From positions 1-64,000 of the forward strand of contig JAZDSV010000007.1 in NCBI GenBank assembly GCA_036784855.1: DNA of 64,000 nucleotides, in the 5' to 3' direction. Source of the stretch: Aphelidium insulamus. Its lineage: Eukaryota > Aphelidiomycota > Aphelidea > Aphelidiaceae. This document shows, piece after piece, positions 25,650 through 63,806 of the stretch. The notes below the pieces were generated by a model, which was not told where the DNA came from, made no database searches, and saw only the letters and a list, made by a program, of their open reading frames with translations. Within the stretch, counting starts at the first letter, position 1. Each line of letters starts with the position of its first letter. The translations under genes were made by a program, and so were the position numbers.

Positions 25650-26410
25650 ACTGCCAACTTTGTCGTTGAATGATGCGAGCTCGTAGCAGTCTTTGGGTGA
25701 AGTTCTCGTAGTGCCTCTGCAGGACATACTGTGCGCGGCATCAAAGCTGCGAGACATTCAAGAAGTGAGAAAACAATGCACAATGCCGACGCCGTGTCCT
25801 TGCCATAATGACCCAACTTTTGGCTGAGCCGTATGAACTGCGAAGTACAAAATGCTTGCTCGCCATTATATACTTGGAATTTCGCAGCATCGAAGCAGCC
25901 AAATAATCAACGTTGCTATCTCTGACGACGGTTCTGAGAAAAAATCTTAACTCGCTTGGATCCATTTCGACGTATTTAGGATCATCATCCAAGAATGGGT
26001 GTCCGTCCATGTTCACAATCAGATACCACAGTTTCCGCAAAGGTCCCATCGGTCTTGCGTGATCAGCTGACTCGCCATCCACTAATGCACTTCTAGCACA
26101 ACGGTGATGCCTTATCGACACCCAGGCTCAGATTGTATAACTGTTCAGAAGATTGGAATGTGTGGCTTTGCCTTCAAAAGCTTCACGAAGGCGGCTTTGA
26201 TTAAAACCAAGTATTATGTGTGGCTGCGCTTGATGTCGCGTGACAGTAGTAGGTATATTTTTTGTTCCGGATCGACTGTGACACGAAGGGATCCGAACGC
26301 AGGCACGGCTCTCCATCTACGTTGACCAGATGGTACCTGGCGCAAAGCGTTTGGCCATGATGGCAGCAATCACAATTCAGCCGTTGTCGAATCGAATACA
26401 TAAGTGTAAT
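25650..26410 (-). pseudogene. broken copy of the Crinkler-like two-domain gene
   Basis: Three frames on the minus strand together resemble the intact gene at 63004-63806. 26390-26230 reads ARYHLVNVDGEPCLRSDPFV. 26200-26128 in another frame matches the REAF region. 26060-25800 reads GPLRKLWYLIVNMDGHPF, then DPKYVEMDPSELRFF and LAASMLRNSKYIMASKHF. The repeated order (first WYHLVNV domain, then WYLIV domain) is kept, but at least two frameshifts break it. Truncated or spliced use cannot be wholly excluded. Confidence 0.6.
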
Positions 26411-38036: not shown

Positions 38037-38800
38037 TTACTCTTGAAGCACCAGCTTGTGTTTCAAAGTTTCGGACTGGACAGCACTGATGATTGCAGGG
38101 CCCTTGTTGTGTACCACATCAGCCATAACCTGCGAGATAGTCATGTAAGGCAAACTGACACATCTCTCAAATGGGATGGGAGGCGTGAATGCGTCGGCAG
38201 ACACGGAGCGTTGAAAGTTCTCAATGGCGACAGGCTCCGAGCCAAATCCTTCATAGAACATCACGTAGTCTCCGCGGGAATGGTCCACCAACATTCCGGA
38301 GCCATAGAAATTGTCAATAATAAGTGAACGAACATTCTTGAAAACGTTCAGCAAGCGTCTATCGCGCACCACCGTCTGATAATACTGCATGAAGTAAGCA
38401 CAAATAATAATGTGGTGATATTCTTATTTTGTCGACACATACGGTAGCCTTACGAAAGATGTTCAAGTCGATGTCTTCTTGTACCCGGGCGCATAATGAT
38501 TGATAAAAATCCGGAAATAAGTACAACGAGCCCTATGAAATTGCATCAAGCACATACATAGCAAGATATATGTGAAAAAATACGTAGCAATGAACTTGCA
38601 TTCACGTAAATGGAGTGACCGCCGTCGGCAAACTCCACGTGAGAGCGGTTTGCTGTTAGATCCAGATCAATAGCGCCATTCACAAATCGCGACGTGAAAT
38701 TTGCCGTGAACTGGGGCGCAAGCGGAAATAGTGGCTTCGCGGCCAGAGCCGATGCAATTCCGAGAACACTGCAGGCGAGTAGGACAGCGTTGGCAATCAT
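38037..38800 (-). CDS. secreted two-cysteine family protein, array member 1
   Basis: Three exons (38800-38600, 38532-38443, 38384-38037) give 212 aa. Family unrecognised. A signal peptide (MIANAVLLACSVLGIASALA) is followed by the family block FPLAPQFTA, exon 2 with one Cys (FYQSLCARV) and DIDLNIF, and exon 3 with MLVDHSRGDYVMF, FQRSVSADAFTPPIPFERC and the end VVHNKGPAI...KLVLQE. One Cys in exon 2 and one in exon 3 are invariant in the array, suggesting a single disulfide. Both introns are phase 0. Intron 1 (38533-38599) has a GC donor (AAT|GCAAGT) where paralogs have GTAAGT. It is separated from member 2 by the virus-like block. Confidence 0.8.
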
Positions 38801-39540
38801 TTTGAATGATTTTTTATTCCGGGAACTTGATGTGGCTAGCGGCCGCCACTTTACGTAATCAGTCAATGACCTAAACCATCGGTATGCCAACAGGCTACTG
38901 TTTCACGGCGTGCGTCTCAATAGCAGTTACGACAGGCACAGTGCATGCCGTAGAGATTATTGTTGAGTTATAAATTAATGTTCACTAAAGAGCTTTTAGA
39001 GATTTTTAAGAACTCATCAAAAACTCTCCACTGGTCGACGGGGTTTAACGGGGTTAAAATCTGGCTACATACTCTATCATGGTGGATGTTTTTGCAGAAT
39101 GTTTCGTCAGCCAGGCCGAGATGGTGAGCTATGTGTCGGCATGTCATTGGTTTGCTGCGATCATGCGTGCCATGCACACGCTGTGCGGTCTGCCCAACTA
39201 TAACCAATATTGTGTGTACGTTTTTTGTGATTGTTGTGATTGTTGTGACATGTAACAATGTCGATTGCGTACATTGTGAAGCCGTGGCGAGCGACGTGTC
39301 GTGTCCATTGATGATTTCAAATTCAACATGAATTAAAAATCTTTTGAAGAAGAGAATGGAAATGAACCGTGCCGCTAGTTTAAGTCGAGATCAAAAACGC
39401 TGAGAGCGAGAATGAATAACGTGAGCTGTCAGCTGTCTTTCTGTCAAACGCCTTCAATATGTGTCTACCCTCCTCCAACTGGTTCGACGGTAACTTCGTA
39501 TGGTTCTATTTCGTTTTTAATACGCGTTTAATATTCGTTT
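38801..39540. other. AT-rich intergenic region, no supported gene
   Basis: This region lies between array member 1 and the decayed virus-like block. A short plus ORF near 39079-39255 ends in a Cys-rich run made by a (TTGTGATTG) repeat and has no family signal. Nothing else is supported. Confidence 0.45.
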
Positions 39541-40003
39541 AATTTTTATTTAGACCCGTGGCACGCTTGACTCGACGAGTAGGAGTGTAGCATGCACGAG
39601 TGGCTTTGCTGCGCTTCGTACCCTTGGGGCAACGAAGCTGCTTTGGTCCTTGCTTGACATCCTTGCATCCCTTGACATTGGCATAATATCGCTGTCCTAG
39701 TGGACATGGATGTGCTGGAGGTTTGCGTACACGTGCCTTGCATATCTTTAGGACTTATCTGCCAGTGGCCGGGTTGATGGTATATGCATAGTCAGATGCT
39801 CGCTTGGAGACAGCCTTGACCTTCTTGACGCGAGGAGCAGCCTTGGGTTTGGTGCACAACGACGAGTGATATCGGAAAGTCCATACTTGCAGTTAGTGCG
39901 GGGCTTGCGGGGGGCTACTGGGGCAGGATTGTTACGAGCAGCACGCTGGGACGGCTTGCGCAGACCCACTTGGAGTTGCGGGCAGTCCCGACTTTCTTGC
40001 ACG
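39541..40003 (-). pseudogene. decayed basic, cysteine-patterned protein resembling giant-virus 2-cysteine adaptor proteins
   Basis: Read on the minus strand, 40003-39840 gives a Lys/Arg/Pro-rich stretch with CKYGLSDITRRCAPNP. After a frame change, 39840-39560 reads YAYTINPATGR, a TAA, then KICKARVRKP, CPLGQRYY, GCKDVK, LRCPKGTKRSKATRACYTP. The spaced CxxG...CxPNP and CP..G...CYTP units with an xINPxTGR motif are the style of the adaptor-like basic proteins of large DNA viruses. One frameshift and one in-frame stop break it. The family call is from memory of the motif style only. Confidence 0.4.
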
Positions 40004-40198
40004 GCATCGCCAAGAGTTCTAAAATTGATTTACGCATTTAGCTTGAGTGTACTTGATACATTAAGAGAATATTTAAATATTTAAAACAAAAAGTGAAGGT
40101 GCACGACTTGATACTTTGACTTGCAATCCAATCAGAACGTCGATTGATGTTACTCCATATTTTGTGATTCTCGCTTTCTTCTTCAAAAAGTGCGCGAA

Positions 40199-41319
40199 AT
40201 GGACGACACAAAGCAACAAGAAATCGTCACCGAGTTGCAGTTGATCGACAACGACAACGCGCGTGCTGACCTCGCTCATTGGAACGCCGATGGCCCACGC
40301 CGTGTGCGCATCATCCGCCAGTGGAACACACGCACCGAGGCGCAATGGATTACGCTGCTTGGCGCGTCGGACGGAATCGCCGTGGCAAACATCATCCGAC
40401 CTCCTGTTCATCCCAACCAGGGTAAGCATCAGTGATTACTGTGTGATTATGAAGGCTAACTGTGTGCGCAGGCGCTCCGTCTCCTCCTGCTAGCCGCAGC
40501 TCATCAGACCAAAGCCTGAATTTCCGCTCGGCACGCGAGAAAGAGTTATCATCAATTGCGCCGGATGTTCAACAAAAGATTTGGAAGTCAGTTGTTCGCT
40601 TGAGGGGTGATTGTGCCGACGGAGATTTTGTTGGCTCGGCCATTGTCGTGGACAAGGATGACACTAGTCTCTATATTCTCACTAATTTGCACTTGCTTCC
40701 CGTTGGCACTGATATGCAAAAGCGAGTTGGTCGAGATATTGCAGTCGAGATGAAACAATATGTCCGGGTTAATGGCCACGCAAAAAGGCAGAAGCGCCGA
40801 GCAGATACTGATGTTGATGTTGAGTCAATGGATCCTCCAAAAGTGTTTATCGACCAGTATAGTGACGGCAAGCTGGTTCATGTCACGGACTTTGTAATTG
40901 AGGAGAGTGTTTCTTTGAAGGCGAACGCCGCGTTTGATATGATAATCTTCAAGATTCCTCTGCCTGACAGTTGCAACCTGGAGCGATGTGATATAAGTTC
41001 TTACTATTGTGACACGATGCCAGTTCATATTTTCGGTTTCCCGGGTGATTTGGCAGACAACAGCAATTTCTCACATGACTATGCCATCATTCCTGCGCAA
41101 GTAACTGGAAAAGATGAATTGGGACATTTGTTGATGTCAGCACTTTCAACTCCCGGGCTGTCAGGAAGCGCCATAGTGTGTACTCAGCGAGGTGTGCCCA
41201 TTGCATATCTTGGAGGTGGATTTGATACCGAGTCTGGGAACCGACAGTACCAGTGTTATGGATATGGTTTTGGTATTATCTCCGGTATCTTGCCCAGATA
41301 CATGAAGAAGAATAGATAG
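40199..41319 (+). CDS. trypsin-like serine/cysteine peptidase-fold protein
   Basis: Two exons (40199-40421, 40472-41319; donor GGTAAGC, acceptor GCGCAG) give 356 aa. A ~75-residue charged N-terminal domain and a Ser-rich linker precede a chymotrypsin-fold domain: FVGSAIVV, LTNLHLLPV (His position), FDMIIFKIPL (Asp position) and STPGLSGSAIVCTQRG (GxSGS nucleophile). The triad looks complete although the His motif is NLHLL, not the usual TAxHC. No signal peptide is seen, so it is probably intracellular. The open frame and correct splice signals suggest a living gene, in contrast to the decayed genes on both sides. Confidence 0.7.
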
Positions 41320-41449
41320 TATGGTTGCATCGAGAGGCTTTTTGAGTCGATGCATTTATGGTCCAATTTTGTGTCACGCTATCACCCCCGGAATTCGGGT
41401 GGGTGTAAATATGAAAAATGATAAGGTCCACCTAATATAATGCCCAATA

Positions 41450-41660
41450 TCCCATCGACGGTAAAAGAGTCTGGATAAGTATATTCAGCGGGAATGTTAA
41501 ACGCGAAGGAGATTATGATGATGTCGAAGTTGATGGAGATTATGATGTCGAGGATGCTGGAGACAATGGAGACGCGATGAGTGACAGCAGCTCCGACTGA
41601 ACCGAACTCGCGGTTGACTTTGTACGAGACTGTGTAGTTTTGCAGGATTGTTTAAATGAT
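41450..41660 (+). pseudogene. orphan acidic C-terminal tail of a SIAH-like gene (repeat copy 1)
   Basis: The segment from about 41450 reads PIDGKRVWISIF, then EGDYDDVEVDGDYDVEDAG and DAMSDSSSD before TGA at 41598. The homologous tail at 43838-43976 ends the SIAH-like pseudogene. DNA similarity continues about 55 bp past both stops (GAGACTGTGTAGTTTTG...GATTGTTTAAA). So a second copy of the SIAH-like gene once stood here and only its 3' end is left. Confidence 0.65.
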
Positions 41661-41770
41661 GCGAATATCATTTTCAACGGAACCTGTCTGTACTGGCAAG
41701 CGTATCAAAGTGAAATACAAGGCCGTTGGACAGCGAATAAACATCGTTGTCAGTACGCGCATTAAGCTAA

Positions 41771-42750
41771 AACATTAACCCCAGGTTAACCAGAAGCAAA
41801 TCGACAAAAATAAAGGAAATTGTTAAAGGACTGGACAACTATGCACTACTGGCAACCACCAACAAAGCGGCCAAGCTGATAAATGGACAAACAGTGCATT
41901 CATTCTTTGGCATTGACATCAATGGGAGCTACAGTAAAGAAGTGGCGCTGAAGACTGCGAGAAAATACGACCACATCATAATTGATGAGTACAGCATGCT
42001 CAGTGCCGCGGTCTATGAGGTATTGTATGTAATCAAGTTGAATACCAACGTCAAGTACATTCTTGTTGGCGACCACGAACAGTTGGGTGCAGTTGAAGAG
42101 AAAAGCTACGACTACTTCAACTCGGAAATACTAAAAGAGCTTGTCAACTGCAACTTCCAACAACTGACTGTCAATAGGCGCTCTGATGATGAAATGTTTT
42201 GCCTGTATACGCGTATTGACGAGCTTGCACCGTGTGACTTTGGTGATACTGCGAATACAAGAATCCATATATGCTACACAAACAATAAGCGTAAGGAAAT
42301 AAACGCCATTACAATGAAGCAAGACAAACTGAAGAAGAAGCGGATGCTCTCTGTTCCCGCAAATCCAAGTGACCCAAACTCGCAAGATGTGCAGCTGACT
42401 ACCGGTACGCCGCTAATGGTAATAAAGAACTGCAATTCCACGGAACTAGTCAATGGTAGTACGTACAAGGTGATGCCGATAACCGGGAAATTCCAGATAC
42501 GCATCAAGTGCGATGACACGGGTGAAGTGCGTGAAATGATTTGGAAATAATCAAGGAGTACTTTTATGTAAACTACTGCTCAACCGTGTTCAAGTGTCAG
42601 GGAATGACATTTACAGACCCGTACACAATTCACGAGTGGAATAGAATGTCACGCAGGATGAAGTACACGGCTATCAGTCGAGCAACAAGCAAAGACCTCA
42701 TCAATGTTGTCGCGTCGGAATCAGATGTGTCAGATGTCCCAGATACAGAT
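41771..42750 (+). pseudogene. virus-like SF1 (PIF1/RecD-type) helicase, frameshifted
   Basis: The first frame (41771-42550) has LATTNKAAKLINGQTVHSFF, a Walker B IIIDEYSMLS, LVGDHEQLGAVE and VNRRSDDEM, then stops; a shift near 42540 continues with YCSTVFKCQGMTF and KYTAISRATSKDLINVV (motif VI). The P-loop region before 41800 is degraded, with stops in every frame. The motif set belongs to SF1B helicases of large DNA viruses and some mobile elements. No introns fit, unlike host genes here. Confidence 0.7.
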
Positions 42751-43085
42751 TTTAAGAAGCTCAAGGCCAAAGAGAAGCGAGAGCGAAGGGGAATGATGAG
42801 TTATTCAAAAAGCGAATGGAAGCACTGGCGGTCATCAACAACATTGTACGCAAAGGGAATGTCAGTGATGACTTTTGTTACCAACATACGTTCAAAACTA
42901 GAAGGGAACTGTTGGAGCATTTGAAGATTGACTGCGGAACTGTGCCAAAAGGATACGAAATAGACCATATCAGACCTAGAAGCGAGCATGTTACCGACGA
43001 CGATTTTACGCAGATTAACGCGTACTGGAACCTTCGGCTACTGACACGTAAAGATAATAATGAACGGAATTGGATAAAAGATTAG
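42751..43085 (+). pseudogene. HNH-type endonuclease domain, frameshifted downstream part of the helicase unit
   Basis: A third frame (42816-43085) takes over near 42815 and reads LLEHLKIDCGTVPKG, YEIDHIRPRS and INAYWNLRLLTRKDN: an HNH nuclease pattern with the DH pair, the central Asn and a WNLRLLT strand. Because the Lys/Arg-rich linker before it is in the helicase frame, helicase and HNH may once have been a single reading unit. Confidence 0.6.
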
Positions 43086-43130
43086 TTAAGCTGTTACAAG
43101 TCATAAAATTAAATATTTTCTCTTCATACA

Positions 43131-43976
43131 GTATGATGAGTAAAGACGAACCAGTCAAAATCGAATACCAACTGACCCGCCAAGACTTGTCGTGTTGCAT
43201 TTGTTACAAAGACATTGCCTTTCCGCTAATGCAATGCTGCAGTGGAAATCATTTCGTATGTGAGACCTGAAATGCATCAATGAAAAATGCACAATGCCCC
43301 GTGTGTATTGTAAACACGACGTTTAACAACTTGCTACTGCAACGTCTCTTGTATCCACAGATGGAACCATGTAACAATGCAGGCTGTCGAGATAGGTCAT
43401 TTAAGTGGGGTGTTGAGGCACACGCTAATGGGTGCAAGTACGCGCCTACAGTGTGCTTCTTGTGCAAAACGACAATTACCAGTCATGCACTGGAAGAACA
43501 CTTGAAGAATGAATGCGACGCCAGCTGGACTGAAGAAACGGACGCAGTCAACGGAAGATTCCCCAAGCAAGTACATCCCCAAGCCTCGACACCGGATGGC
43601 TATGACAAAGAATCACAAAAACACTGTCATATTTGTAGATGGAATAAACTTTATGTTTAAGGCAGTGCTGGATGGATATCGAGTAGGCTTGATTAATAGT
43701 GAAAACAATGAACGACTTGTGAGTATACTGCAAGTGACTACTTCAAAAGCTAAGGAATATGCAGTCAGGACTGACGTGGTAAGCCATTGCTACAAATCAT
43801 TAAAGGACTTGAATGCGATTGAAGAGTTACCTGTCATCGATGGGAGTGTTAAAGAAGTCTGGATAAGCATATTCAGCCGGAACTATAAATACGAAGGAGA
43901 TTATGGCGATTTCGAAGTTGATGATGTCGATGTTGAAGACGTTGGAGACGCGATTAGTGAGAGCAACTCTGACTGA
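43131..43976 (+). pseudogene. SIAH-like RING/zinc-finger protein with internal stop and frameshift
   Basis: The frame starts at ATG 43131 or 43134: LSCCICYKDIAFPLMQC (RING first half), an in-frame TGA at 43267-43269, then CPVCIVNTT and SIAH-type zinc fingers (CNNAGC...HANGC, CFLC...HLKNEC). Near 43550 the frame shifts, and the continuing frame reads NHKNTVIFVDGINFMFKAVLDGY and ends in an acidic tail at 43976. SIAH-type proteins are E3 ubiquitin ligases, also found in large DNA viruses. It is intronless and broken twice. Confidence 0.65.
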
Positions 43977-44032
43977 ATACGCGGTTGAGATTGTATGAGA
44001 CTGTGTAGTTTTGTAGGATTGTTTAAAATGAT

Positions 44033-44240
44033 GGCTATATCACGGAAATTGGGGTTTCTTGACGAAAAGGGCATATACGCGAAAGTTGCGGCGCAAAGCA
44101 CGCAAGCTACTAGCAAGATCTTGGCAAGCATTTTTGTGTGGGTGTGGGAAGCGTACAATCAGGCCGTGACCGAAGAGTTGATAAATAACATCTGCAGTGA
44201 GATAAGACATGAAGGTATTATATTTCTGTGGTTGTATTGA
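44033..44240 (+). CDS. small ORF of unknown function after the SIAH-like tail
   Basis: 68 codons from an ATG that lies just inside the end of repeat copy 2. The composition is helical (KVAAQSTQATSKILASIF, EELINNICSEIRH). It could be a fragment of a larger mobile-element or viral gene. No family is recognised. Confidence 0.3.
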
Positions 44241-44285
44241 ATGTATGAAATATTGCGGCGGATAACGCCTTGGGCCTTCCGTCCA

Positions 44286-45039
44286 TTAGCTCTGCAGGAC
44301 CAGCTTGTTCTCCGCAGAATTCAACTGAATCTGGCTGATGATTTTGGCGCTCTTATGGTGCACCATGTCGTCCATAATCTCGGAAATCGTCATCCACGGC
44401 GCGTCCACACAATCCTCAAACGGAAATGGAGGGTTGAACGCGTCGGCGGACAAGGTGCGATTAAAATTCTCAAACTTGATAGAATCGGACCCAACAATAG
44501 TCTCCACCAGCACCACATAGTCACCGGTTACGTGGTCGACATACATTTCGGATTGATAGTAATAGTCAAGAAGCAGGGAGCGGACGTTCAAGAAGCGATC
44601 GAGTGCGCGTCCATTTTGCACCGTAGTTTCTTCATACTACATTGACATGTATCTAGTGAATACATTCAAAAGAATTCAACCTGGTGACGACGTACGGTTG
44701 CCTCGCGAAAGATGTTCAAGTCGTAGTCCATCGGTAGCCGCGCGCACAAGGGAAACGTATCAGGGTAAACGAGTACAGAGCCCTGATAGTGAATGCACCA
44801 AGTGGAGGAAGATAAATCCGCAGTATACTTACATTCACGTAAAATAAGTCCCCGATATCGTTCACCGCCAGATGAGTGCGGTTTTTCGTGAGGTCCATGC
44901 TGACAGCACCATGTAACGCACCGTGTGCCAGCTCAAAATCCGCGGTGAACTGGGGTGCAAGGGGAAACTGCCGTTTCGCAACCAGGGCTGAGGCGATTCC
45001 GAGAACTATGCACGCGGCAAATGCGGCCTTGGCAATCAT
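44286..45039 (-). CDS. secreted two-cysteine family protein, array member 2
   Basis: Three exons (45039-44833, 44782-44696, 44636-44286), 214 aa. It is the closest relative of member 1 (MIAKAAFAACIVLGIASALVA; FPLAPQFTA; YDLNIFREAT). Exon 3 has MYVDHVTGDYVVL, FNRTLSADAFNPPFPFEDC and ends MVHHKSAKI...KLVLQS. The two family cysteines are present. Intron 1 (44783-44832) has a standard GTAAGT donor at the exact site where member 1 has GCAAGT. Five bases around the donor are otherwise identical. Confidence 0.8.
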
Positions 45040-45309
45040 TTTTGACACTTTTCTTCTGGGAACTTGATGTGGCTTAGCGGCTAGCGGCGTGTTGGACAAT
45101 TTTTCGCGGCCTTAACCTATCGGTAGTCTAACTAGCTGTTATGTGTTATATTACGCAAATACGTATGGCGAGCCTAACCTCACCCGCTATCCCTACCTGT
45201 GATTTAACCGCACAGTATGTAAACGGACTAGTCGACGGTAAATAAGCACATAATTGTGAGAGAAACGTTTATGTATTATGCCAAACGACCTAGCGCATAG
45301 CTAAACAAT

Positions 45310-46044
45310 TCACTGTTGCACAATAAGCTTCTCTCTCTGCGCGGCGTGCTGGACAGTAATGGCAGCAATCTTGGCACCCTTGTTGTGCAAGATGTCATTG
45401 AAGATATCTTGTGCAGACAGGTCGCCAGTCAGACCTTCTACACAGTCCGAGAACGGGAAAGGCGGAATGAATGCAGATGCGGCTACCGATCGCTGAAAAG
45501 CAACAAATTCTGTCCTTTCATACTCGACATAGTCCTTGGTGATGTGGTCGACAAGAAAATCGTCGCCATAGTGGCCGTAGACAAGCGAGCGCACGTTAAC
45601 ATAGTGGTCCAGGGTGCGTCCATTGCGCGTGATGGTAGCGTTGTGCTGCCAAATGAGAAATTTTATTTACATGTGATCACATTGGTGTACCTTTGCACGC
45701 GTGAAGATATCCAAGTCCAATTCGAATGGAACGCGCAGGCACACGGGAACATCTTTCAGATAAAAGTTGACGTAATTCTGCAAAGTTAGCATCGCTGCAC
45801 CGTAGACGCTCATCCACGAGAGCTTATGTACCTCCACGAAGAAAAAGTCTGCGCCTTGGTCAACCGTCACGCGCGCGCGGTGATCGGCCACGTCTATGTA
45901 CACGGCCCCATCCTTGGCACCATTGACGTAGATGTCGGCGGTAAACTGCAGCGCTACGGGGAATCCACCAGTCTGTGCCACTAGCGCGGATACGCTGTGG
46001 GCGACGCCGAGCACACACGCTGCAATGAAGAAGTTTGCGTGCAT
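45310..46044 (-). CDS. secreted two-cysteine family protein, array member 3
   Basis: Three exons (46044-45832, 45777-45691, 45645-45310), 211 aa. Signal peptide MHANFFIAACVLGVAHSVSA; FPVALQFTADIYVNG; exon 2 with DVPVCLRV and LDLDIF; exon 3 with LDHYVNVRSL, FLVDHITKDYVEY, FQRSVAASAFIPPFPFSDC and ILHNKGAKI...KLIVQQ. It is more diverged than members 1 and 2 but has the same exon layout and phase-0 introns. Confidence 0.8.
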
Positions 46045-46156
46045 GACAAAAGCGATAAAAGGATGAAGATTATCGTTCCAACACTAATAAATGCACTTGC
46101 ACCTATTTATACCCAATTTTGACGTGTATTTATTGTAAGTGACTAGAGGTTGTGGA

Positions 46157-46891
46157 TTATTCTTGCAGCACCAACCCGTCCGTCGAGGAGTGCTTTGCAG
46201 TGCTCCCCTTGTTGTGCAGCATTTCAGCAAGCGCCGATTTGAACGCCACCTGAGTGATGTCGACACACTGTGAAAACTCGAATGGCGGCGTGAATGCCGT
46301 GGCAGACAACGATCGCTGAAAGGAGGTAAAGTCCACCGCAGCAATGCCGGTGCTCTCCAGGAATCGGACATAGTCGCCAGTGGAGTGGTCGACGTATATT
46401 TCAGAGTAGAAATAGTCGTCAAAGAATATTGAACGAACATCGGTGTAGTGGTCAAGTTCGCGCCCCTCACGAGTAACCGTTGTTTCATACTGCTCTTGCG
46501 TATAGAGCTTGATAAAAGGATTACACACGTACCGTAGCTTGTGAGAAGATATTGATGTCATAGTCAATTGGGGCGCGCGCGCAGCCGGGAAAGTCTGATG
46601 GGTATATGTACCCGTAGCCCTTTCAAGTGTTAAGCGTTCAGTGCCAGATATTTAACGCTGCAAGCTTACATATTCATAAAACACGTCTCCCATTCCATTC
46701 AACGACAAGTGCGCGCGGTTGGCCTTCATGTCGGCATACACTGTGCCGGTTACGTATTCAGGACCATACACATTCACATTGGCAGTGAGCTGCTGCACCA
46801 AGGGAAACTTTGGTGGACCAACCACCACCACGGCAGAGGATATGAGTGGCGCGCAGAGCACACAGAGCGCGATGCCTTTTATTGCGTGCAT
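46157..46891 (-). CDS. secreted two-cysteine family protein, array member 4
   Basis: Three exons (46891-46670, 46619-46533, 46489-46157), 213 aa. Signal peptide MHAIKGIALCVLCAPLISSA, then PPKFPLVQQLTANVNVYG; exon 2 DFPGCARAPIDYDINIF; exon 3 LDHYTDVRSIFF, IYVDHSTGDYVRF, FQRSLSATAFTPPFEFSQC and LHNKGS...LVLQE. A decayed copy of its exon 1 lies at 48641-48836. Confidence 0.8.
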
Positions 46892-47076
46892 ATTTTGACA
46901 GTATGTACGTGGGAACGCTGTGTGATTATTATGGCGCTCGCTTTAATAGTGCTTATGTAAACGACCACGCCACCTCCACTTATAATTCATGTTCATTGAT
47001 GAGATTTTTATATGTCGGCATTGATTAATGGGCCGTGGTGTGAAATATGGTTTTGTGAATTGTGGGAAATTCCCTC

Positions 47077-47396
47077 TTATTCTTGCAGTACCAGCTTCTG
47101 TTGATGGGCCTGTGCAATAAGTGCAGCTATATTGGCACCCTTGTTGTACGCCAAATCATGCACGATATCATCGAAAGACGGCTCATGGAGCAACTTCATG
47201 CACTTGGAAAATGGAATCGGAGGGGTGAAGGCGTCTGATTGCACTGTACGTTGAAACTGATAGTATTTAGTGAATGCGCCTGTTGACACGTATCCTGCGT
47301 AGTTTTGCGTAGCGCGATCCACGTACATCGAACATTCGCCGCAACGTCATCAATGCAACGCATGGGGACGTAATGGTCCAATTCTGTATTGTATTA
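47077..47396 (-). pseudogene. array member 5, exon-3 remnant with frameshift
   Basis: Only the third exon is recognisable. LDHYVPMR is in one frame; a one-base shift near 47335 moves the reading to MYVDRATQNYAGY, FQRTVQSDAFTPPIPFSKC and AYNKGANI...KLVLQE. No exon 1 or 2 is found in 47400-47650, which looks non-coding. This is a 5'-truncated copy. Confidence 0.75.
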
Positions 47397-47660
47397 TACT
47401 AGCATTGGTAAGAACATAGATAGTCATGCACTATAAATTATGTTGCTATGCATTCGCATAAAATCACAAATGCATAATGCCAGGTGATACAACGTAAAAC
47501 ACAAACATATACATACACACTCAAAGTTAAAATAATCTAGGCGGCCGCGATTGTATGTAAGCGTAAGCGATTAAGCCATCGCTCAAACCCGAATTGATTG
47601 AGTTGGGAATATATTTATGTGGGCATTGCATTAAGGGGCGAAATTGAGAGGGGTGTTTTT

Positions 47661-48396
47661 TTACTGCTGGAGCACCAGCTTCGTCTTGCGCGCCTGTGAA
47701 ACCAGAGCAGTGATGTCGGCACCCTTGTTGTGTGCCAGAACATGCAGGATCTCCATGAATGACATTGTGTTGAGCAAATCCGGACAGTTTTCGAACGGAG
47801 TCGGTGGAGTAAAGGCGTCAGAGGGCACAGAACGTTGGAATTGAGAAAACTCAATATACGTATTTTCCAATACAATTTCGACGTAGTCTTTCTTAGCGTG
47901 GTCAACGTACATTGACGATTCGCCTTTTCCGTCAATGGGACGAATGTTGACGTAGTGGTCCAATTCACGTCCATCCCGCGTAATAGTCGTGTTAAACTAT
48001 AATGTGACGGATCAATTAATGCACAGGACACAGGTGAATAAAATCGATTATACCTTGGCATTAGCGGCGATGTTCCAATCTAGATCTTTGGCTTCGCGAA
48101 AGCAAATGTCGGGAGTGAGATAGGTATAAGTATAATGCTGCATATGAGACAACATTTTCATCAAAGCAAAGGAAGACAAACATTTTCATAGTAGACGTCC
48201 ACTTCAATATCATCCTCGGAAAAATGGGCGCGATTGCCTATGCTGGAGTAGTGCACTGCGCCATAGATGATTTCACACCCAAACTATATCTCGCAGAGAA
48301 CTCTGCGGCAGTCGGAAATTTGGGCTCGGCCACCAGGGCATCAGCGCACGAAGCCGCTGCGAGCGCACACGCAATGGCGGCGATTTTGTAGTACAT
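47661..48396 (-). pseudogene. array member 6, near-intact with a one-base frameshift in exon 1
   Basis: Exon 1 (48396-48182) is 215 nt against 216 in member 7 and shifts frame after the FSARYSLGV region; the correct frame resumes at IIYGAVHYSSIGNRAHFSE. Exons 2 (48137-48054) and 3 (47996-47661) are intact: YLTPDICFREAKDLDWNI; LDHYVNIRPIDG, MYVDHAKKDYVEI, FQRSVPSDAFTPPTPFENC and LAHNKGADI...KLVLQQ. It is most like member 7. It is either a young pseudogene or a sequencing error. Confidence 0.75.
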
Positions 48397-48640
48397 TGTC
48401 GATGACGACGCAAACGACGCAAACCTTAACCGTGTTTAACAAATCAGCTCTCAGCACGTATTCATATATATATAACTATATTTTGTGCATGTCACAACGA
48501 ACTAGGGCAACCAGCAGTGCAACGTCACGATCGACCGACTAGTTGCATAAAGAAATCACTAGTCAATGCTATTGTCAATTGAGTCTAGCGCAGCAGGCAA
48601 AGTAGAGAGATATGTGTATCCATGCAATTTAAAGCGTTAT

Positions 48641-48836
48641 GTGCCAAACACACAACGCTGCAAGCTTAAGTATTCGTTAAACACGTCCACCGTGATATTA
48701 TTCCACCAGTGTGGCGGTTAGCGTACACTGTCCTTTAAATCGGTGTTGAGCTGCTGCACCAGGGAAACGTTGGTTTGACCAATACAGATAGAACGCGCTA
48801 AGCACAGAAAGAGCTATTGTTTTTTGTGGGCATTTT
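48641..48836 (-). pseudogene. decayed exon-1 fragment of the secreted family (member 4-like)
   Basis: The plus-strand stretch AACGCTGCAAGCTTAAG...TATTCGTTAAACACGTC matches the exon 1/intron 1 boundary of member 4 (AACGCTGCAAGCTTACATATTC...AAACACGTC at 46654-46690). Similarity continues through GCATACACTG and GAGCTGCTGCACCA to the start-codon region. Many small deletions make it non-coding. Confidence 0.6.
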
Positions 48837-48985
48837 CCGACCTGTATAATACATGGACGCTATGATTTTGCAGCCGATCCATAACGTGCTTTAAGCAATT
48901 ACGCTACCGCTGCAATAAATGATTTGGGCATTTATATTTATGTGGGCATTGCATTATGGAGCGGCATTGATATTATTAATGTGTT

Positions 48986-49715
48986 TTACTGTTGGAGCAC
49001 CAGTTTGTTATGGTGCGCCTGGGCGACCAGAGCAGTGATTTTGGCACCCTTATTGTGGGCAAGATCATGCAGGATATCCTTGAATGACATTGCATTTAGC
49101 TCTTGCTGACAGTATTCGAAAGGAGTCGGTGGAGTGAATGCGCCGGAGGGGACAGAACGTTTAAACCGGTAAAATTCCACATAATCGTCTCCCCATACCA
49201 TTTTGACATAGTCTTGCGTCTCATGGTCCACGTACATTGACGCTTCGCCATCGCCTTCAATGGGACGAATGTTGACGAAGTGGTCCACCTCTACACCATC
49301 GAGTGTAATAGTCGCGTTGAACTACAATTTTACGGATCATGTAATTCACATGAACATGTATGTGTACCTTGGCATTAGCAGCAATGTTCAAATCACGGTC
49401 GTCGAATGAGCGAGAGCACTTGTTGGGAGAGAGATAGAAATAAGTATACGGCTGCAATTTAGATAAATAAAATGACGGTCAACTCAGAGCAAGACATACA
49501 CTTTCGTAGTAGAAGTCCACTTCCAAAAAGGGCACGGACAGGTGCGCGCGCTTGCCATTGTTGGCATAGTGCAAGTTGCCAGTGAAAAGTCCATCGGAAA
49601 AAATATATTTCGCAGAGAACTGTGGGGCAGTCGGGAATTTAGGCTCCGCAACCAGGGCATCAACGCATGAAGCGGCTGCAAGCACGCAAGCAACGGCAGC
49701 GATTTTGCAGTACAT
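48986..49715 (-). CDS. secreted two-cysteine family protein, array member 7
   Basis: Three exons (49715-49500, 49451-49368, 49321-48986), 211 aa. Signal peptide MYCKIAAVACVLAAASCVDA; AEPKFPTAPQFSAKY; exon 2 YLSPNKCSRSFDDRDLNI; exon 3 VDHFVNIRPIEG, MYVDHETQDYVKM, FKRSVPSGAFTPPTPFEYC and LAHNKGAKI...KLVLQQ. Intact. With member 6 it forms a recent subgroup with a different exon 2 opening (YTYxYLxP) from members 1, 2 and 4. Confidence 0.8.
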
Positions 49716-49953
49716 TTTGGAAGGTAACGCAAATTAAAGGTGGCGCAGGTTTTTAACATTTTCGTAACCTTAACCGTGGCTGACGAATCATCTCTGTAAG
49801 GCACAAATGTTTAACATATAATTAATATTTATGCATATGAATTCACAGTATGTCATTACTGAGCTTAGGTAAGCATTTCGCCGACTCACGAATCGAGTAT
49901 TTCTGTGGGCATTGATTGATCGAGTGCAGACTTTTTATCAGCGAGGTATTGGC

Positions 49954-50045
49954 ACTGTTGAAGCACCAGTTTATTAATGCGCACCTCTGCGACCAGAGCA
50001 GCGATGTTGGCACTCTTATTGCGGATATCCTTAAAGGACATTGCA
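49954..50045 (-). pseudogene. 3'-end fragment of the secreted family
   Basis: Minus strand reads MSFKDI, then NKSANIAALVAE and INKLVLQQ. It is the C-terminal block of member 7 with a deletion of about six codons (the LHDLAH region) and no stop codon. It marks the distal edge of the array. The rest of 49716-50232 holds no gene. Confidence 0.65.
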
Positions 50046-62113: not shown

Positions 62114-63003
62114 TCAATACACTTCTTGCTGTAACATCAAACACCATGTAAACATGGGAGGACTTTACAAAGTGAGTTCTCGCATGATGCAGTATTCGTT
62201 ATTAAATATAATATAAATAAATATATATAAATGAAGTGCCGTACGCAAACGACGTGAATGAAGCTAGCTCCGATTCTGGAGCTATAAGAATGTGTGGGCG
62301 TCATTTGGACTAATAATAGGGCAGCTCAGTCGATACAGTTACTGCAAGACAGGTTGCTTTATCGCCATCCATGCATCCATGTAAGCCCCTATGCCATCAA
62401 GGTGCCTCTGCAGCCATTCGGGCATTCACGGAGCACAACTAGAATTACTTTATTCCACTGAATTAATCTGCTCCAGTTATGGGGCGCACATTGCTGAAAC
62501 ATGCGGATTAAACAGCGTTCGTTATTGATTGATTGATTTATTCATTAAACGTATCTATCCGGTCGGTCATGATGTTGCACCATTGGTTGCCCGAGTGCGT
62601 GTTGACAAATACAAAATATGCTTCAGTTCAGTGATAAACTCCATGCGGAGTATAGCGGCGTGGTCAGCCGTCGCACTGCATGAAGAAGTTTGCAAGAAAA
62701 AAGTTCGACAGTCGACACAGTCTATGAGTCGCAGTCATTTTAGCACAGAGAACGTTTCGTAGTAGCCGAAGCAGAGCTGAGTAAGAATGCTCGACTGTCG
62801 CCTAGTGCGGCCAGCATGCAGACATTGTAGGAGAGCCGGGGCCGAGAGAATGGCATCAGTTTACCTCTGTCTCCCACTTGGCTTGATGTTGCTGTCACAA
62901 CGGGCTTAAATTTGCTTTACCGGCTAAAGAGAGGAACATTTCAGCGAATCAGCTTCGACCTAATCAGCATCTCTTCCAATTCGTTATGGTCTGCTTTTCT
63001 GCA
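62114..63003. other. intergenic region with dispersed repeat copy 2
   Basis: About 890 bp downstream of SKA1. It holds the 62547-62619 repeat preceded by a short GATT run (GATTGATTGATTTATT). No gene is supported. Confidence 0.5.
62547..62619 (+). repeat. dispersed 73-bp repeat, copy 2
   Basis: Matches 12756-12828 over 73 bp without gaps and with about six substitutions (AAACGTATCT...CCGGTCGGTC to ...ACAAAATAT). The flanks do not match. Confidence 0.85.
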
Positions 63004-63806
63004 ATGTCGAAATCGCAGCGCGTATGGTACCACCTTGTCAACGTAAATGGGGAGCCGTGCCTACAGACAGACCCATTTGTCGTCGATGATTATCCGGAAG
63101 ATCCGTTACTTGCGTTCGCATGGCTTATCAAAAACAGTCACAGAAAATACTTGGCAGCCATTGATGCAAGCGAAATGATCATGTTTGACAGTGAAGAAGC
63201 ATTTAGAAATTCGCAGAAACTAACGTTAACTACGCATGTGCATGCAGTGGGGCGCGATGTAGCAACACCTCTGTGGATAGTCTTGCCGACGAGAAGCGCG
63301 TTAATGGATGGCGTTCATGAAGAACAGGCTCAACGGTGCGGTATCGTGAAGAAGATTTGGTATGTCCTCGTGGACAAGAACGGGCATCCTCTACAAGGTT
63401 CTGATCCGAAATACGTCGAGGCTAACCCCAGAAAATACATCGCAACTTTCAAGGATGTCATTCATGGCAGCAATTTGGAACATTGTGCAGCGTTTGATGC
63501 CGGGGAGCTGCAAATATTTGATGGCCCGCAAGGATTTCGGAAACTACAACCCTTGGAGCCAGACCAAAGGCTGGAAAAGGTGGGTGATGGTAAAACAAGC
63601 GCATTGTGGGTACTTGTTCCCATTGTGAAGGACGTATATAAGCACGTTGTTGCGGAACCGGAGTCCCTGTCGGTAATATTCTATTTGTAATCTCTGTGAC
63701 TGCATTTAACCCTACGATATAGACCGAAGTTCCAGAGCAAGTCATCTCACAGTCCCCCGCTGTAGCTAGCACCATGAGAAATTGGGTGCGAAAACGTCAA
63801 ATGTGA
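63004..63806 (+). CDS. tandem Crinkler-header-like protein
   Basis: Two exons (63004-63672, 63723-63806) give about 250 aa; an earlier in-frame ATG is at 62986. The protein is two copies of a ~95-residue domain. Copy 1: VWYHLVNVNGEPCLQTDPF ... YLAAIDASEMIMFDSEEAF ... PLWIVLP. Copy 2: IWYVLVDKNGHPLQGSDPKYVE ... HCAAFDAGELQIFDGPQGF ... ALWVLVP. The strand-helix layout with AxDAxEhxhF resembles the ubiquitin-like header domain of Crinkler (CRN) proteins, here without a visible effector C-terminus; it ends in a basic WVRKRQM. The alternative is an unrelated beta-grasp-like family. No signal peptide. Confidence 0.6.

Follow-up and report, generated by a model that had tools for sequence, protein, structure and literature searches.

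The 64,000-nucleotide stretch analysed here, called the window below (positions 1-64000 of contig C139, from a genome of 18 Mb in 169 contigs), carries a tandem array of genes for a family of secreted-looking two-cysteine proteins. We propose, with a probability of about 0.6, that these are small proteins, secreted or endolysosomal, which carry hydrophobic molecules on a LolA/ependymin-like half-barrel fold, and that they form a duplicated repertoire with a disulfide and a tail that may serve for sorting or anchoring. The five intact copies of the window encode spliced products of 211-214 amino acids, with two phase-0 introns of 43-67 bases each, one cysteine in exon 2 and one in exon 3; a signal-like segment at their N-terminus was assigned by eye.

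A family spread over the genome

A search with exon 3 as the query found 36 places on 14 contigs, the query included, of which 29 have E<0.001 and the others lie between 0.001 and 0.015, so that the similarity seen in the array is above chance. Two further queries with diverged members gave 29 and 30 places, which overlap the first set and add C30, C135 and C147. Gene modelling in 25 genomic regions yielded 26 models of a full-length domain, defined as the first strand through the last cysteine, on nine contigs (C1, C12, C29, C92, C108, C125, C139, C147 and C160). Since the frameshifted copy of the window, a pair of domains from a single gene and a few models with low scores (on C125, C147 and C160) are counted among them, the number of intact genes is somewhat below 26. 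The sequence-only reading, made on the window before this analysis, described a 12 kb array; the family extends beyond it, with members on other contigs, and the array itself resumes at C139:79.1-82.6 kb with two more copies. Over a tree of these 26 models the contig label changes 10 times, versus 16.4 times in shuffles, none of 200 shuffles being as low; members of the same contig thus tend to group, which fits tandem duplication with some dispersal.

The domain is also found in longer proteins. At C1:624.8-626.8 kb two domains are fused in one frame, and the exons on C135 can be read as three or more domains in a row, whose last-domain block is shared by members on C1, C30, C64, C93, C95, C138 and C139. 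A chain-type subgroup (on C64, C135, C30, the end of C1, C93, C95 and C138; L025, L028-L031, L023, L019, L021) is recognised by the block TVFQGRK.DRW, includes one or more genes with three tandem domains and has tails of its own, such as MERDVRFR; on C1 and C135 it lies close to contig ends.

Ratios of nonsynonymous to synonymous substitution (dN/dS), proposed as a check in the sequence-only reading, were obtained by Nei-Gojobori counts on 20 clean models, with values listed for the 22 pairs of lowest divergence and for all ten pairs within the window. They range from 0.16 to 0.40 in the listed pairs for which an estimate was possible, with 0.26-0.30 in a trio on C92 (dS 0.10-0.37) and 0.26 in the closest window pair (dS 1.33), five of the ten window pairs being saturated in dS. 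Selection on close pairs is purifying on average. One of the three similar copies on C92 (134051-134728; L010 5552-6229), with a dS of 0.10 to its nearest neighbour, has no normal end: after HNKG, its frame continues into other sequence.

Sequence comparison with known families

The description of these proteins as an unrecognised family was borne out by the searches. No Pfam profile reached its cut-off in the 15 sequences submitted (in batches of 1, 11 and 3, some copies being present twice), none of which matched PF00811 (Ependymin), and the best near-miss was VioE, at E 0.031 in one of 11 members. In a search of 5.8 billion proteins with an 11-row alignment, by a method limited to relatives with identical five-residue words in common, 3712 candidates shared words and none of them came to E 0.01 or below; a profile search of the PDB returned only WDR33 chains, at E 0.17 or worse. 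PF00811 was likewise silent against the whole genome and, since it was also silent in 14 controls, this search adds nothing. A link to EPDR1 by HHalign looked good with the signal peptides included and was dropped once the control with the mature part alone was not significant. Sequence comparison alone gives no proof of kinship with the EPDR family.

A predicted LolA/ependymin-like fold

The copy at 45310, in which both introns are in frame, was chosen for the structure predictions; row sets A2, A3, A5 and A6 were misaligned and left out of folding. Its AlphaFold2 core model is of low confidence, with a predicted local distance difference test score (pLDDT) of 56 and a predicted template modelling score of 0.51. 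The model shows ten exon-encoded strands of at least 4 residues, one short strand and a short helix, with pLDDT<50 in several parts; the LolA superfamily fold used for comparison is an 11-stranded antiparallel half-barrel with a helix. EPDR1 ranks first for this model in both Foldseek and VIA-align 2, followed by LolA and VioE, and the LolA superfamily takes eight of the first nine rows in Foldseek and rows 1-7 in VIA-align 2. Another model of the same copy, built from an overlapping but different row set, has the LolA superfamily at Foldseek ranks 1-3, and the same superfamily therefore comes first for both models among 350,542 chains. In VIA-align 2 with the poorer model it is not in first place. 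A search of viral structures gave no match at E 0.001. The LolA/ependymin-like fold, which had been a guess of the sequence-only reading, is supported by this modelling, that is, by the low-confidence model and the structure searches.

The two cysteines are placed as follows in this model: that of exon 2 (residue 77) opens the sixth exon-encoded strand, and that of exon 3 (residue 176) lies near the end, behind the short helix. They are present in 24 of 25 (C82) and 25 of 25 (C174) alignment rows, 84-99 residues apart. In the case of EPDR1, C113 and C210 connect strand 6 to the C-terminal loop and are described, in section 12 of PMC6363788, as the most conserved pair of the eukaryotic family; the pair found here matches them (alignment positions 94/186) in place and spacing. 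The placing of the cysteines on the fold is thus supported by modelling, and C82 and C174 would form a disulfide.

Further points can be compared with EPDR (PF00811; human EPDR1, PDB 6e7o and 6jld). The predicted fold is the same, an N-terminal signal-like segment is found in both, and the EPDR length of about 213 residues, in a class of some 200, is matched by the window copies. In our by-eye alignment of 25 rows, the place of D70 holds D in 23 rows, R or H lies near R77 in 22, the place of W151 is aromatic in all 25 (W in only one), and those of F191 and F204 hold F/Y in 25 and F in 22. Unlike EPDR, the place of P174 is Tyr or Phe in all 25 rows, there are no counterparts of C42 (alignment position 23) or C172, no cysteine being conserved before C82 in the mature part, and PF00811 does not match. 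According to the part of PMC6280359 that deals with them, all three published EPDR cysteine profiles have the N-terminal C42. As this cysteine and the Pfam profile are missing, we do not class the family as true EPDR; judging from the models, it looks, and probably works, like one while standing outside the published definition.

Bacterial proteins also come close to the predicted fold. LprG belongs to the LolA superfamily, and LolA/LolB, VioE, RseB and LprG share the same predicted half-barrel, with VioE being also the nearest profile in Pfam. The LolA, LolB and VioE rows of VIA-align 2 have only 5-14% identity to the family and, in contrast to the disulfide proposed here, the known bacterial structures have none, as stated in the relevant section of PMC6363788.

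A recurrent C-terminal tail

A hydrophobic pair (with 0 or 1 residue between), followed by Gln with 0-3 residues behind, ends 19 of the 26 full-length models and 22 of the 41 models that extend as far as the last-cysteine region. This tail is retained across linkers of very different length; in the two-domain gene on C1 it is found on the second domain only, and the tails of the chain-type subgroup differ from it. As the members are related, these counts are not independent events, and the notable point is the persistence of the tail in highly diverged members. The idea of a genome-wide sorting tag found no support with a strict form of the tail: the DNA pattern gave 11 matches, six in the family and five elsewhere, versus nine for the reversed control, and by eye none of the five ends a convincing secreted protein.

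Proposed function and other explanations

We suggest that the concave sheet of the half-barrel holds a hydrophobic molecule, while the disulfide, from strand 6 (exon 2) to the segment after the last strand (exon 3), would hold the C-terminal end against the barrel. The repertoire, of about 25 or more full-length genes whose ligands probably differ, would have arisen by duplication, fusion of domains and dispersal. A variable linker lies between the fold and the short tail (hydrophobic-x-hydrophobic-Gln), which may have a part in sorting or anchoring. EPDR1 has been described to bind fatty acids, presumably in the deep pocket of its concave sheet (passage on binding in PMC6608618), and membranes of anionic lipids at acid pH (passage on membranes in PMC6363788). 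By analogy, the present proteins most likely catch a hydrophobic molecule, either outside the cell, if they are secreted as we infer, or in an acidic compartment.

The fold match might instead be an artefact of a weak model, the real fold being another all-beta one. In favour of this are the pLDDT of 56, the lack of any Foldseek match with E<0.001 for the core model, and the HHalign comparison of the mature part with 112 EPDR1 proteins, which was not significant (weak evidence, since the EPDR1 profile is narrow, with an effective number of sequences of 2.3). We regard this as very improbable, since the same superfamily comes first in Foldseek for two models from overlapping but different row sets, and since the two cysteines, the distance between them and several positions conserved in EPDR agree with the match. 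If the fold is accepted, its pocket might still be empty. In the Gal/GalNAc lectin heavy chain of Entamoeba histolytica, a eukaryotic surface protein, the lipoprotein-like domain has a LolA-like fold with a capped and empty cavity, as reported in the portion of PMC12948311 on this domain; in VIA-align 2 it appears in row 22, with 136 aligned residues, and in row 31, with 135. A chain of at least three domains, as on C135, would suit a domain kept as a rigid, secreted module of an adhesive or matrix protein. The lectin domain differs from the proteins described here in being part of a large lectin, in which several disulfides hold it (same portion of PMC12948311). We consider such a role unlikely.

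The size of the family, its lack of relatives among the protein-search candidates (none at E 0.01), its tandem and dispersed duplication and the position of some members close to contig ends are also what could be expected of secreted factors acting on another organism, with the fold a mere scaffold for variable loops. The pairwise counts, however, give no sign of diversifying selection (dN/dS 0.16-0.40), and this explanation appears quite improbable to us. Beyond the carrier proposal itself, we put forward only tentatively that a deep fungal or near-fungal lineage has independently built carriers on the LolA/ependymin fold, both single and chained, that most of the single ones share one destination through the Gln tail, and that they act as secreted lipid catchers by a logic like that of the odorant-binding and lipocalin families.

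The array and its neighbours in the window

Nine pieces were claimed by the sequence-only reading on the minus strand between 38.0 and 50.0 kb, five intact, one frameshifted and three fragments, and their positions were confirmed by splicing and blastn. The intact copies, spliced by script, are 38037..38800 (exons 38600-38800, 38443-38532 and 38037-38384), in which intron 1 requires either GC as its donor or a GT lying two codons further upstream; 44286..45039 (44833-45039, 44696-44782, 44286-44636); 45310..46044 (45832-46044, 45691-45777, 45310-45645); 46157..46891 (46670-46891, 46533-46619, 46157-46489); and 48986..49715 (49500-49715, 49368-49451, 48986-49321). The frameshifted copy, 47661..48396, has one frame change in exon 1 by three-frame reading, with exons 48054-48137 and 47661-47996 open. 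By blastn, 47077..47331 is the 3' portion of an exon 3 and matches the 47661 copy at 68% over 304 bases; 48632..48782 (the fragment at 48641) is a relic of exon 1 and intron 1 akin to the 46157 copy, at 80% over 56 bases and 89% over 37; and 49954..50045 is an end of exon 3 (83% over 71 bases to the 48986 copy). Duplication and decay of copies on one strand are supported, but the window copies are old, with a dS of 1.3 or more, or saturated, and not in fresh turnover. Among the sequence blocks, VDHxxxDYV is exact in all five intact copies; FQRSVxxxAFTPPxPFxxC and HNKGAxI...KLVLQ, each exact in one copy only (38037 and 48986, respectively), hold as consensus with substitutions.

Inside the array, between the 38037 and 44286 copies, the plus-strand stretch 41460-44030 has a frame of a superfamily 1 helicase and further frames judged HNH-like and RING/TRAF-like by eye or from matches below cut-off; direct repeats (95 nucleotides at 77%, plus neighbours) lie close to its two ends. 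The helicase has 16 genome matches, itself included; besides itself, six have 88-93% identity over nearly the whole length, some in frames of more than 1000 amino acids, and a pattern search found no relative in viral contigs. We read the stretch as a decayed copy of an element, mobile or virus-like, that is repeated in the genome. At 40200-41319 (+) lies a gene with the look of a trypsin-like serine peptidase (GLSGSA motif by eye), whose main exon has no Pfam match. Further away, 62986-63690 (+) and 25741-26121 (-) have a module in common (40% identity over 68 residues, pair E 4e-17); the module (WY.LV..G.P) is repeated in the 62986-63690 protein and may resemble the Crinkler N-terminal domain, and the two proteins have no Pfam match above cut-off.

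Source lineage and implications

Among the 120 listed matches of an AFG2/SPATA5-type ATPase of the window, for which the 7998 candidates with most shared words were scored, all named eukaryotes are fungi (chytrids, Neocallimastigomycetes, Mortierellales, Glomeromycotina, Mucorales and others), with a best identity of 52%, and many others are archaeal or unnamed. The top match carries a Joint Genome Institute code that we take to be Homolaphlyctis. A tree of this single gene gave no placement, the long-branched window row joining archaeal rows. The Chitin_synth_2 profile matches 20 stretches on 10 contigs (best E 8e-235); as it also matches in four of the 14 controls from bacteria, and organisms other than fungi have chitin synthases too, this result is only supportive. 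From these sequences we take the organism to be a fungus, or closely related to fungi, from an early lineage that has been poorly sampled.

EPDRs are absent from fungi according to section 12 of one survey (PMC6363788), and the abstract of another (PMC6280359) lists fungi among the groups without them, while mentioning earlier reports of potential EPDRs in Fungi. Titles and abstract openings of the literature on ependymin in chytrids and fungi, and on the LolA fold in fungi, describe no such fungal proteins, and neither the Gln tail nor chains of tandem domains are described for EPDR in the sections of the surveys that deal with it. If our proposal is true, the fold would be more widespread in eukaryotes than profile searches show, and about 25 full-length genes beyond the reach of sequence profiles would offer natural variants for asking what the pocket binds.
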